From Clostridiales bacterium (lineage in GTDB: Bacteria > Bacillota > Clostridia > Peptostreptococcales > BM714), in assembly GCA_002869095.1 (NCBI GenBank), contig PKTO01000310.1, positions 1 through 12,296 on the forward strand: a DNA stretch of 12,296 nt, given 5' to 3'. Below the pieces are notes generated by a model. It had not been told where the DNA came from. It saw only the letters and a program-made list of their open reading frames with translations, and ran no database searches. Below are positions 332-10,549 of the stretch, one piece after another (position 1 is the stretch's first letter; each line of letters opens with the position of its first letter). Position numbers and translations under genes: made by a program.

Positions 332-1768
332 CTATTCAATTACTATTATCGCGGCTTTGCCTATTTCTATCCAATCATACAGGAATTTGGCATGGCTTGT
401 ATAGTTCCTCACGCACTTGTGTGAACGGGGAACAGTCCCTATGGTAAAAAGATACTCCTTCATGCCTGGATCGACTTTCGCGCCGTTCACAATCGAATAA
501 TTGACCGGCACGCCATGAATGTAGGCGCCTGCATTGAATCTTATCGTATACGGCGCATACCCCGCCACTTCTTTTGTTATGTCGTCCAGATATATGAATT
601 TGGGCTGTGTCCCGATAGCCATCCAATATCCAAGCGATGTGGGCATTTTGTACTCGGCTTCCTCGCCGGTAGTGGCAAAAATATAAGAAATCAGACTCCA
701 GTTTCCATCAGCGAATTCAAAAACCCCTTCGTTTTGGTTCTTGCGGTCGACCACAACAACCTGTTTCAGCTCTTCTATCGAATTCCTGAATGAAACATAT
801 TTCTTGGGGACCCATAATTCAAGCCCTTCCTCCATTGTCCTGACATTGTAGTGGGTTTTGGAATCGTTTTCACCAAATACCGTAAGCAGGGTTCCGTCTT
901 CAAGATACCTGAAACCGCTTTTGTCATCCAGGTCATAATAGGCTGGCGCGGACTGGGATCTTGCAGTGCCGAATTCATCCTCAACCTTTCCATTGAAGAG
1001 AGGGGCCCTGCCGTTTATGTTCTTGTAATTGGATATATAGGCGGTTGTATTGGAGTCCAGTTCATCCTTGAGCAATTTCACCTTTTCAAACATCTTGTCG
1101 AACTGATAGGTCCGAGGTTCCGCCAACGCCGAAAAAACGAAACCTTCCCTTATGTCGTCTCCGTCCTTCCACAGGATCCTGTACCACAAATCGGTATCGT
1201 ATTTCTCGACATACTGGCCTTTGACAATCGCCTCAAGATTGACTTTTTCAAAATAGTAAACCTTGTTTATTATATTGTCTTCAATGACCGGCTCCGCCCT
1301 TACGTTAAGAGTGTTGGTCATTATCAGCGCATAGCTGTATCCCGACGGGTATTCATCATACTTGAGGTCAATCGACAAGCCATCCGGAATTTCAACTTGA
1401 AAAACTGCCACTTCAACTATCTCTTGGGCAATTTCTTCTTGGGCCGCAATATCAGGCTCGGTTTCAAGAACCTCTTCAATGTTCATTGCCTGCTCGAATT
1501 CTTCCTGCGAAACCATTACCTGCTGCTCTGTGATCGCCTTTTGGATTGCTCTTTCGGTGATGTCCATGCTCTCTTCTATTTCTTCGACTGTTTTTTCTTC
1601 TACGGTGTTTGGTCCGGATTGGCCGCTGTCGCAGTCGTTTTCTTCGATGGGGAAGCGTTCATCACTTAAGCCGTCCGAATCACCTGACCCGCAACCCGGC
1701 AAGATTGCCGACAGGCATAGGACAATCAACAGAAGCCTTGCGGATTTCATTGCTTTTTTGCTTGTCAT
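332..1768 (-). CDS. L,D-transpeptidase lipoprotein with SH3-like domain
   Basis: A 478-aa lipoprotein. Residues 1-26 form a signal peptide ending in the lipobox LPGC. Residues 40-120 are a Glu-rich linker. Around 140-225 lies an SH3-type domain (NTLNVRAEP, then a WYRI segment). The C-terminal 90 residues look like a YkuD catalytic domain: His418 in IHGVP and the nucleophile Cys452 in SHKCVRN. In the family these residues make 3-3 cross-links in peptidoglycan or attach proteins to it. The usual SHGC glycine is Lys here, and His418 is farther from the Ser-His pair than in short YkuD proteins; I recall similar forms in other Clostridia. The start is set by AGGA overlapping the TAG of the nitroreductase gene; the stop and start are 6 bases apart, so the two are cotranscribed. 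Confidence 0.85.
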   Translation of the reverse strand: MTSKKAMKSARLLLIVLCLSAILPGCGSGDSDGLSDERFPIEENDCDSGQSGPNTVEEKTVEEIEESMDITERAIQKAITEQQVMVSQEEFEQAMNIEEVLETEPDIAAQEEIAQEIVEVAVFQVEIPDGLSIDLKYDEYPSGYSYALIMTNTLNVRAEPVIEDNIINKVYYFEKVNLEAIVKGQYVEKYDTDLWYRILWKDGDDIREGFVFSALAEPRTYQFDKMFEKVKLLKDELDSNTTAYISNYKNINGRAPLFNGKVEDEFGTARSQSAPAYYDLDDKSGFRYLEDGTLLTVFGENDSKTHYNVRTMEEGLELWVPKKYVSFRNSIEELKQVVVVDRKNQNEGVFEFADGNWSLISYIFATTGEEAEYKMPTSLGYWMAIGTQPKFIYLDDITKEVAGYAPYTIRFNAGAYIHGVPVNYSIVNGAKVDPGMKEYLFTIGTVPRSHKCVRNYTSHAKFLYDWIEIGKAAIIVIE

Positions 1769-7314: not shown

Positions 7315-7524
7315 CTATTCGAGCGAAATCACTTCATATCCCGCGTCTTCAACTGCAAAACGGAATTCAGAATCTCCAACTTCCCTAGACATTCTCAATT
7401 CGGCTTTTCCCTAGCCAAGGTCTACAATCACACCCAGAACCCCGTCGATTTCACGCAATGCGTTTTCAACCCTCATTTTACAATGTCCGCATGTCATCCC
7501 TTTAATAAAAATTGTCTTTTTCAT
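7315..7524 (-). pseudogene. copZ: CopZ-like copper chaperone gene with in-frame TAG
   Basis: This frame codes for a typical heavy-metal-associated domain: MKKTIFIKGM then TCGHC, VENALREIDGV and, at the end, AVEDAGYEVISLE. CopZ proteins carry Cu(I) to CopA. Codon 38 is TAG (7411-7413), in the position where relatives have Gln, Lys or similar before GKAEL. The reading frame is intact on both sides (69 codons if read through) and a strong AGGAGG precedes the ATG. As read, it gives only a 37-aa fragment lacking two strands of the fold. TAG ends at least three other genes here, so pyrrolysine readthrough is unlikely; a recent nonsense mutation or a sequence error is more likely. Confidence 0.75.
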
Positions 7525-7645
7525 TTTTATCCTCCTATCGATAGATTTCAGCGGGCAGCCGGCAGCAAATACAAAAACGTTCAAAAACCAAATGCATTTC
7601 GGTATTTTTTGCTTTTGTCTTTTCTTTTACTTTTTTGTTTCTTTC

Positions 7646-7737
7646 TTTAAAGCTTTTTCTTTCAACTTTCTACTTTCTACTTTCTGCTTTCTGCTTGCTG
7701 TTCTTTCTTTTCTTCTGGTTTTAAAGCTTTTTCTTTC
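7646..7737. repeat. Pyrimidine-rich tract with 18-bp direct repeat
   Basis: In the 475-bp gap between the CopZ-like gene and copA, bases from about 7600 to 7770 are almost all C/T on the plus strand. An 18-bp unit, TTTAAAGCTTTTTCTTTC, occurs at 7646-7663 and again at 7720-7737. I see no open frame with a ribosome site and no promoter here. Confidence 0.7.
7664..7698. repeat. Heptanucleotide tandem repeat (TACTTTC)
   Basis: Five head-to-tail 7-base units: AACTTTC, TACTTTC, TACTTTC, TGCTTTC, TGCTTGC. Two are identical and the rest differ by one or two bases. This is a simple slippage-type repeat, not a CRISPR array: there are no spacers. Confidence 0.75.
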
Positions 7738-7877: not shown

Positions 7878-7997
7878 AGACTGACGAGAATGCCTTAGTT
7901 CAAGGCGTCGATACAAATGCGCGAGTGCGCGTATTTCTAATACGCAATCGAGAGAGTTGTTGATGACAACGCAGAAATCAGGCATTCTCGTCAGTCT
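7878..7997. repeat. Structured intergenic element with 17-bp terminal inverted repeats
   Basis: Perfect 17-bp inverted arms at 7878-7894 and 7981-7997 enclose 86 bases. Inside are two smaller hairpins: a 7-bp stem 7929-7935/7939-7945 with a 3-base loop, and a 5-bp stem 7956-7960/7966-7970. The whole can fold as a multi-branched structure. It begins three bases after the copA stop, so the copA transcript would end in it, but no U-run marks it as a terminator. It codes for no protein. It may be a dispersed intergenic repeat (a MITE-like element) or a structured RNA end. Confidence 0.65.
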
Positions 7998-7999
7998 GA

Positions 8000-10453
8000 T
8001 TATGGTTTGAACTTTCGCAAGCGCAATGCATTCCCCACAACCGAAACACTGCTCATTGACATTGCAGCGGCCGCTATCATCGGATTTAGAAGAGGCCCTC
8101 CGAAAAGATGGAGAAGTCCTGCCGCTATCGGTATGCCCGCCGTATTGTATGCAAATGCCCAGAAAAGATTCTGTTTGATGTTTCCGATCGTGCTCCTGCT
8201 TAGCTTTACGGCTGTAACCACATCTGTGATTCTGCTGTGCATCAAAACGATGTCGGCCGATTCCATTGCCACATCCGTGCCGCTCCCGATTGCTATTCCT
8301 ATGTCGGCCTGCGCCAAGGCGGGGGCGTCGTTTATTCCGTCACCAACCATAGCCACGGTCTTTCCCTGTTTTTGAAGCTTTTTGATTTCCTCCGCCTTGT
8401 CGCCCGGAAGCACTTCCGCAAGCACCGATTTTATGCCCGCCTTGTCCGCTATAGCCAAAGCGGTTTTCCTGTTGTCTCCTGTTATCATGTATACATCTAT
8501 GCCCAGTCCGGAAAGTTCGCCAACCGCGCTTGCGCTGTCTTCCTTTATTACATCGGCAATACCGAAAACGCCTTCAACCGAGCTGTTTACAGAACATATT
8601 ACGGGAGTCTTTCCCTCCGAGGAAAATGCTTCAAGAACTTCCTCGATTTCATTTTCAAGCCTTATGCCCTTGTCATTGAAAAACTTTGCGTTTCCAATCA
8701 AAATGCTTTTGCCTTCGACTTCTGCTTCTATACCCTTTCCAGTGAAGGAGTTGAATGTTTCAGGCCTCGCGAGTCCCAATTCCCTGTCTTCGGCTTTTTT
8801 TACTATTGCGTCGCCAAGAGGATGTTCGGAAACTTTCTCAGCCGAAGCTGCAAGCCTGAGAACTTCAGATTCATCCATGCCGCCGAAAAATGCCATGTCG
8901 GTCACTTCCGGCTCTCCTTTCGTTATGGTTCCGGTCTTGTCGAAGACTATGGCATCAATCTTGTGGACGGTTTCAAGGGCGCCTCCGCTTTTGATGAGGA
9001 CACCGTAATCCGCGCCTTTGCCTGTTCCAACCATTATTGCCGTAGGAGTTGCAAGCCCAAGTGCGCATGGACATGCTATTACGAGAACGGAGATGAATAT
9101 GGTCAGAGAGAACACGGCTCCTTCTCCTGAAACATACCATGCCAATCCAGATAAAACAGCCACCGCCATCACCGCAGGAACGAAATATCCCGAGATGATA
9201 TCCGCAAGCCTTGCAATCGGAGCCTTGCTGCCTTGAGCTTCCTCAACCAGCTTTATTATTTGAGACAGGACCGTGTCTTTTCCCACTTTTTCTGCCGCAA
9301 ATACCAGGCTGCCGTTCTTGTTTATGCTTGCGCCTATGACCCGATCCCCTGAATTTTTCTCGACCGGAAGGCTTTCACCTGTAAGCATAGACTCGTCGAC
9401 TGAAGAATGGCCGCTTACGACTATTCCATCGACAGGTATCCTTTCTCCGGGCTTTACAACAATAATGTCCCCACTTTCCACCTCCCCAATCGGAATTTCA
9501 ATCTCCGAGTCGCCGTGGAGGACTGTGGCGTGCTTGGGCTGAAGGCCCGCCAATTTTTTGATTGCTTCGGAAGCCTTTCCCTTCGAACGCGTTTCAAGAA
9601 ACTTGCCAAAAAGAATCAATGTTATTATTGTCGCGGCAGTCTCGAAGTACAGCTGCGATGCATATGAAACATCTCCCGAAGAAATCCGCAACAGCGCATA
9701 CACACCATATAAGAATGCGGCGCTGGTACCCAATGCAATCAGAGAATCCATGTTCGGACTGCCCTTTGCAAGAGTCCTGAAACCCACAATATAGAATCTG
9801 TATCCTGCTCCCATCACAGGGATGACAAGCAGGAGTTGAGCAATTGCAAAATTCATTGGATTGGTCATTGGACTCAGCGCATCCGGAATGGGCATGCCAA
9901 GCATATGCCCCATCGCTATATAGAGAAGCGGCAGTGTGAACATGACAGATACCGCAAGCTTTGTTTTCATTATGCGTATTTCTTTGTCTTTCCTTTCCTT
10001 GTCGGCATCATGTTCTTCCGATTCCCGCTCTATTTCGAGCGGTTTGTAGCCTGCCTTTCTGATTGCAGCCTTAATTTCGGAAAGCCTCACGACATTTCCG
10101 TCATATGCAACCGTGACCTTTTCCACCGCCAGATTGACATCAGCGGATTCTATTCCAGAAAGCTTGTTGACCGCCCGGTCAACCGCCGCCGCGCAGGATG
10201 CTCAGGTCATTCCTTCCACAGGAATGACGACTTTCCTTGTATCCTTGTCCTCGTAGGCTCTGTAGCCGGCTTTCATGACTGCCCCGAATATTGTTTCCTG
10301 GTCCAAAAGGTTTTCATCATATTCGATTGTCATCTTGCCGGTGGCAAGATTGACTTCCGACTTCGCAACGCCTTCCAGTTTCCCGGTTGCCTTTTCTACG
10401 GCTGCCGAACAAGCCGAACATGTCATGCCGTCTATCCTGAATGTTTTTTTCAC
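8000..10453 (-). CDS. copA: CopA, copper-exporting P1B-type ATPase; in-frame TGA read as possible selenocysteine
   Basis: Read through one TGA (codon 84, 10202-10204), this gives 817 aa, a normal length for a two-HMA CopA. HMA1 has GMTCSAC (Cys12, Cys15). HMA2 has GMT-TGA-ASC, where the TGA replaces the first metal-binding Cys. Next come eight predicted membrane segments, TGE (358-360), CPC (461-463), the phosphorylated Asp505 in DKTGT, HP (544-545) and GDGIND (704-709). A YN pair (769-770) and MSMSS (798-802) are marks of Cu(I) pumps. The GTG at 10453 is chosen because GAGG lies 7 bases before it. No other stop or frameshift interrupts the frame, and no ribosome site serves a restart after the TGA. 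If the TGA is a true stop, the gene makes an 83-aa HMA protein only. Confidence 0.82.
10166..10204 (-). promoter_or_regulatory. Candidate bacterial SECIS element with its TGA codon
   Basis: In the copA mRNA, TGA (10204-10202) is followed by 18 bases and then a perfect 7-bp stem, GTTGACC (10183-10177) and GGTCAAC (10172-10166), with a GGGC loop. The loop starts 25 bases after the TGA and opens with GG. As I recall, bacterial SECIS elements need an apical loop 16-37 bases after the UGA with a G among its first two bases, so distance and loop both fit. SelB and SelC are not in the window. Confidence 0.55.
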
Positions 10454-10549
10454 AGTCACACCTCACTTTTTCGCCTCTTGAATATCTACCCCATTCGGCC
10501 GGCTGTATTCAGGCCAGTCGAATCCCCTGCCATAATAAGGTCCATTATG

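Follow-up and report, generated by a model that had tools for sequence, protein, structure and literature searches.

Does the single UGA codon in the copA frame of this locus end a protein, or is it read as selenocysteine (Sec)? The DNA analysed, here called the window, is the whole stretch of 12,296 nucleotides from a Clostridiales bacterium. The following features bear on the question.

8000..10453, minus strand: copA, predicted Cu(I)-exporting P1B-type ATPase; 817 codons, including one UGA, precede the stop
10262..10444, minus strand: HMA1 domain (domain match), motif GMTCSAC with standard cysteines
10043..10225, minus strand: HMA2 domain (domain match), holding the UGA
10202..10204, minus strand: TGA codon, putatively read as Sec, in place of the first Cys in the motif GMT-U-ASC of HMA2
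8000..10126, minus strand: longest ordinary open reading frame past the UGA in the ORF listing, with a GTG start within HMA2, 708 aa

The copA frame starts at GTG 10453, with GAGGTG upstream, and stops with TAA at 8000; another possible start is GTG at 10459. When the frame was translated with TGA as U, a single TGA was observed at 10204-10202 in the context VEGMT-U-ASCAAAV, which is codon 84 counted from GTG 10453 and codon 86 counted from GTG 10459. The first-pass annotation had described a second HMA motif (GMT-TGA-ASC) whose first Cys is replaced by the one TGA of the frame, and both the frame and the alignment with relatives confirmed this; the gene, which might have been broken elsewhere, is otherwise open. 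The annotation had also described HMA similarity on both flanks of the UGA in one frame and intact pump motifs downstream. Indeed, the Pfam profiles for HMA (two stretches), E1-E2 ATPase and HAD hydrolase all matched in the single frame, and TGES, CPC, DKTGT, HP and GDGINDAP, which we take to be the pump motifs of P1B ATPases, were found intact by reading the translation. Furthermore, the protein passed the curated NCBIfam cut-offs of TIGR01511 (629.4 versus 397) and TIGR01525 (655.1 versus 346.25), the copper-translocating and heavy-metal P-type ATPase subfamilies, respectively. Among its relatives of known structure are chains designated copper-transporting ATPase HMA4 (8q73) and copper-exporting P-type ATPase A (3j09), and Cu(I) transport is the predicted function. 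The identity to many Cys orthologues is about 60%; the architecture is wholly shared with Cys-containing CopA, whereas Cys stands there at the place of Sec.

We consider it very probable that copA is a genuine selenoprotein gene, in which SelB and Sec-tRNA would read the UGA with the guidance of a hairpin to give a full-length pump with UxxC in HMA2. This basis is comparative: the decoding capacity of the genome, the retention of the UGA at a single functional residue across many lineages, the hairpin associated with it and selection on both of its sides. The Sec-for-Cys reading of the first-pass annotation is thus supported. Judged by such comparison, the UGA has been retained as a sense codon; the insertion of Sec itself and the reason for its use are our inference.

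Selenocysteine machinery and the UGA codon in related genes

The window genome (G000; 1.93 Mb, 370 contigs, 90.87% complete) was searched for selA, selB, selC (tRNA-Sec) and selD, the genes that the first-pass annotation had named as a check of its proposal, and all four were present. Three of them lie together on contig C256: selA (513.6 bits), whose 5' end is cut by the contig end, is just before selB (366.2 bits), and tRNA-Sec (70.2 bits, gathering threshold 47) is just after it. The fourth is on another contig.

G000:C316:1386-2309: selD (L169), with an in-frame TGA in SGUAAKI

The selD frame contained exactly one in-frame TGA, at what is presumably the known Sec place in SelD, and this codon is a positive control for Sec decoding in the window genome. 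tRNA-Sec was found in 75 of the 80 genomes tested; a search with stricter filters found it in all 30 Sec-copA genomes (29 known then and G188, added afterwards) versus 45 of 50 others. No TGA was reported in copA of the five genomes lacking tRNA-Sec among the matches listed. Since Sec decoding is common in the order, tRNA-Sec discriminates poorly between Sec-copA genomes and the others.

The gene was searched for first in 60 relatives and then in 393 genomes of the same order, 141 of which had a match at 1e-250. Among the 150 matches listed (hand count), 30 in 29 genomes had a single TGA and three had TAA or TAG. All 30 TGA-containing genes could be aligned: 22 TGAs fell on the HMA2 Cys and eight on the homologous HMA1 Cys, whereas the second Cys of the motifs and the rest of the gene had none. 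The TAA and TAG stops aligned with E, K and K residues; two of the three were within 7 residues of the match start and may be outside the gene. Three more genes had a TGA upstream of the matched part, giving 33 genes in 32 genomes, in all of which the TGA takes the place of the first Cys in an HMA motif (22 in HMA2, 11 in HMA1). This count is a lower bound for the order sample, because stop-free genes with unfetched upstream DNA could hide more. The alignment with relatives that the first-pass annotation had proposed thus gave TGA as the homologous codon in 22 HMA2 genes including that of the window, and together with the 11 HMA1 genes this means that the TGA in copA is more than chance.

The congener that shares the TGA is the second genome of the genus and its copA is 83% identical to that of the window. 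In the other genes, the arrangement varied. L158, counted among the 22 HMA2 cases, has a single HMA only, which carries its Sec codon, and G134 contains two copA genes (L128 and L148), one with Sec in HMA2 and the other with Sec in HMA1. Three genes with three HMA domains (L164, L166 and L167, of G188, G218 and G247) have Sec in the first HMA; L165 (G074), from the same genus group, has the Cys codon TGT at this place. When 398 genomes were sampled phylum-wide, 169 had a match at 1e-220, and the rows listed contained one further TGA case outside the order (G468, Sec in HMA1) and two TAG cases. A scan of named genomes, covering the best 80 of 587 candidate loci, gave one TGA, in L049 from a Tepidibacter MAG, the sequence of which is identical to L132. 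The duplicates in the data are therefore L049/L132 among the Sec rows, as well as L027/L058 and L035/L067 among the Cys rows; L111 was presumed to be a duplicate of L162, since the match figures of the two are equal.

In addition, L163 (G003), a different P-type metal ATPase with 33% identity, has a TGA at the HMA first Cys place (GVD-U-PSC); Sec may therefore have entered other metal ATPases.

The hairpin downstream of the UGA codon

A potential guide for SelB was found just 3' of the UGA.

10166..10183, minus strand: bSECIS-type hairpin GTTGACC-GGGC-GGTCAAC with a 7-bp stem, whose loop, stem and spacing agree with published constraints

The hairpin comprises 18 nt from 18 nt past the UGA, its apical loop GGGC (10176-10173) begins 25 nt past the UGA, and its stem energy is -9.0. 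The bSECIS model, as described in the relevant passages of PMC13188914, has a loop of 3-9 nt with G in the first two places, a stem of 4-16 bp, a spacing of 16-37 nt and an MFE of -7.5 or lower. Taken alone, the hairpin of the window was not significant (z-score of the single-sequence fold -0.08, synonymous-shuffle p 0.070), and the Rfam search of the window gave no match at the gathering threshold. Because of this z-score, the significance of the hairpin rests on the relatives, and the relatedness of the genes inflates all of the tests given here.

Of the 22 distinct HMA2-Sec genes, 17 retained six or seven of the seven stem pairs, as against four of 116 distinct Cys genes. The mean best stem energy was -4.87 in the 23 Sec rows (one duplicate) and -1.20 in the 118 Cys rows (two duplicates), a contrast with p=1e-10 when relatedness is ignored. 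Codon-preserving shuffles (300 and 100) were beaten at p<0.05 by 17 of 23 Sec rows (16 of 22 distinct) versus 11 of 118 Cys rows. In the alignment of the 22 HMA2-Sec sequences, 83.8% was paired, as compared with 20.8-50.0% for slid partners, and none of 500 shuffles reached this value; the covariation score was reached by 7 of 500 shuffles, and the three pairs changed on both sides were equalled by 39 of 500. The published value of -7.5 kcal/mol was reached by few Sec genes when the energy of the stem only was counted; over 48 nt it was reached by 21 of 22 HMA2-Sec and seven of eight HMA1-Sec genes. Five HMA2-Sec genes (L029, L135, L145, L158 and L159) kept fewer than six of the seven pairs, and an alternative hairpin at p<0.05 was observed among them in L159 only. 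Under the same p<0.05 shuffle rule, L029, L135, L145, L158 and L136 had no significant hairpin.

The HMA1-Sec genes have a 6-bp stem with a loop that starts 21 nt past the UGA. In this stem, 95.2% of the cells were paired (seven distinct of eight genes) versus 7.1-61.9% for slid partners, and codon shuffles were beaten at p<0.05 in four of eight genes versus 2 of 110 Cys rows; the alignment gave no covariation beyond shuffles. Cys genes located inside Sec clades were also compared. Two of the seven pairs are broken in L131 and three in L033, as against none or one in the Sec relatives compared, and one of six is broken in L165. L028 and L133 were uninformative, because the neighbouring Sec genes L135, L029 and L145 are also without the stem.

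Selection on copA and other readings of the UGA codon

Between the copA genes of the window and the congener, pN/pS was 0.22 upstream of the UGA, 0.15 in the next 25 codons, 0.16 in the remaining HMA2 and 0.13 in the pump; it was 0.05 to 0.27 across the same parts in four other pairs. No start codon occurs within 21 codons past the UGA in four of the five pairs. In the four pairs with the next start at +22 or later, the 25 codons past the UGA gave 0.15, 0.10, 0.08 and 0.16, with few changes each; the pair L029/L145 says less, because it has a GTG at +7 after the UGA. The low pN/pS just past the UGA means that this stretch behaves as coding. A pseudogene is disfavoured by the pN/pS on both sides of the UGA.

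A FastTree phylogeny of the copA cores was constructed with the HMA region excluded, as one tree of the 147 rows (145 distinct) left after L163 (another ATPase), L049 and L111 had been dropped. On this tree, several deep nodes of which are poorly supported and which places the window gene with weak support (57, 83), the 33 Sec genes require no fewer than 13 changes between Sec and Cys, counted without direction.

The alternative that survives best, although we regard it as unlikely, is that the UGA yields two products according to selenium supply: the full pump with selenium and, without it, an HMA1 fragment serving as a copper chaperone, as in E. coli copA frameshifting. According to the part of PMC5009743 concerned, recoding in E. 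coli copA is likewise in the N-terminal part and gives a 70-residue putative chaperone; however, the frameshift there makes the short product, whereas Sec recoding of the window copA would make the long one. The UGA comes after a complete HMA1 in two-HMA genes with Sec in HMA2, and the small chaperone-like frame near copA in the window is itself interrupted.

7315..7524, minus strand: copZ-like small HMA frame with an in-frame TAG at 7413-7411, above the Pfam HMA cut-off and below the NCBIfam CopZ cut-offs

On the other hand, termination in the 11 order genes with Sec in HMA1 and in the single-HMA L158 would free no complete HMA domain; these HMA1-Sec genes therefore disfavour truncation as the general purpose of the UGA. 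Moreover, a separate open copZ-like frame was observed by reading directly 3' of Sec-copA in 13 of the 27 Sec-copA genomes scanned, and release of an HMA1 chaperone seems unnecessary where such a frame follows. A short HMA1 product by termination at the UGA is possible in two-HMA genes with Sec in HMA2, that of the window included. A narrower version, to which we give slightly less credence still, confines the selenium-dependent switch to the HMA2-Sec lineages, with the pump made in selenium-replete cells and a free HMA1 copper chaperone in selenium-poor ones; if true, it would link copper handling to selenium status.

It is very improbable that the UGA is a true stop separating an 83-residue HMA1 protein from a 708-residue pump started at the internal GTG (10126), the gene being either functional in two parts or in decay. 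An in-frame GTG does lie 26 codons past the UGA, and these two pieces are what plain ORF listing gives. Nevertheless, the position of the UGA on the HMA-motif first Cys in 33 of 33 order genes and the purifying selection in the 25 codons past it speak against a true stop, and some Sec genes offer their next start only after 77 or 96 codons, past HMA2. Genome-wide reassignment of UGA to Trp, Cys or another amino acid would also keep the copA frame open (read with table 4), but the presence of the Sec genes, the single TGA in the 820-codon frame and the selD TGA in SGUAAKI make it barely credible. A sequencing or assembly error, for which the fragmentation of the genome into 370 contigs might speak, has a negligible probability: the first-pass annotation had allowed for a misread codon, but the identical TGA recurs in the congener and in 20 other HMA2 genes, and a misread base can therefore not reasonably account for it.

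Proposed role of Sec, related families and the region 3' of copA

In the reading of copA as a selenoprotein gene, SelB with Sec-tRNA would decode the UGA at 10204-10202 as Sec, and the hairpin just past it would guide this decoding. The product would be a full-length Cu(I)-exporting P1B ATPase, the second metal-binding domain of which has UxxC in place of CxxC. The Sec selenolate would most likely be a Cu(I) ligand that stays deprotonated owing to its low pKa and is rapidly re-reduced after oxidation; the N-terminal domain could thereby keep working as the anaerobe meets copper or oxygen. Because Sec occurs in either HMA1 or HMA2 and is frequently exchanged with Cys, it is probably of modest use that depends on conditions, and not essential. 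Most of the well-characterized selenoproteins are redox enzymes, and Sec at the copper-binding site of a transporter would place selenium in metal handling. The natural Sec/Cys exchanges, with Sec in HMA1 or HMA2, offer matched pairs on the contribution of Sec to Cu(I) binding. In addition, plain ORF calling splits Sec-copA genes and hides their N-terminal domains.

The first-pass annotation had spoken of an unusual selenoprotein family. Sec in a copper ATPase held up, but the implied newness did not: E1-E2 cation-transporting ATPases with UxxC already appear in published selenoproteome catalogues, as their table entries indicate, and the window copA belongs to this already predicted family of Sec-containing pumps. 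A table in a 2026 review lists a P-type heavy-metal ATPase with UxxC (TIGR01525), and the review cites Zhang and Gladyshev 2007 for the family; the table of the GOS survey gives 1 sequence, and the corresponding row in Peng et al. 2016 reads 25 and 32. Like the window CopA, the catalogued proteins are P-type heavy-metal ATPases with one Sec in UxxC; these table rows and short passages do not tell which of the two HMA domains holds the Sec, and the alternation between the two is between HMA1 and HMA2 is absent from the passages concerned in the 2026 review, the GOS survey and Peng et al. 2016. A term search of the main text of the deep-Sep paper found no mention of ATPase or copper, and a literature search, judged on the titles and the starts of abstracts of the records listed, found no experimental study of a Sec-containing copper ATPase. 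By their names, the NCBIfam families NF041115 (UxxU_metal_bind) and NF045683 (MerT/CopZ fusion-like selenoprotein) represent a related metal-binding domain with Sec; their profiles of 74 and 235 positions, respectively, are not pumps. The window CopA scored 94.5 with NF041115, under the cut-off of 95, and has one TGA versus two Sec; accordingly, it is not a member.

Several minor features were observed 3' of copA. The TAG in the copZ-like frame may be real nonsense or an assembly error; the copZ-like copy of the congener (L019, about 925-1134, minus strand) is an open frame. A perfect 18-nt inverted repeat is located directly 3' of copA at 7878-7895 and 7980-7997, and, by reading, a similar stretch is also 3' of copA in the congener. 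Between copA and the copZ-like frame, positions 7590-7720 of the window appeared by reading to be purine-rich with imperfect repeats.
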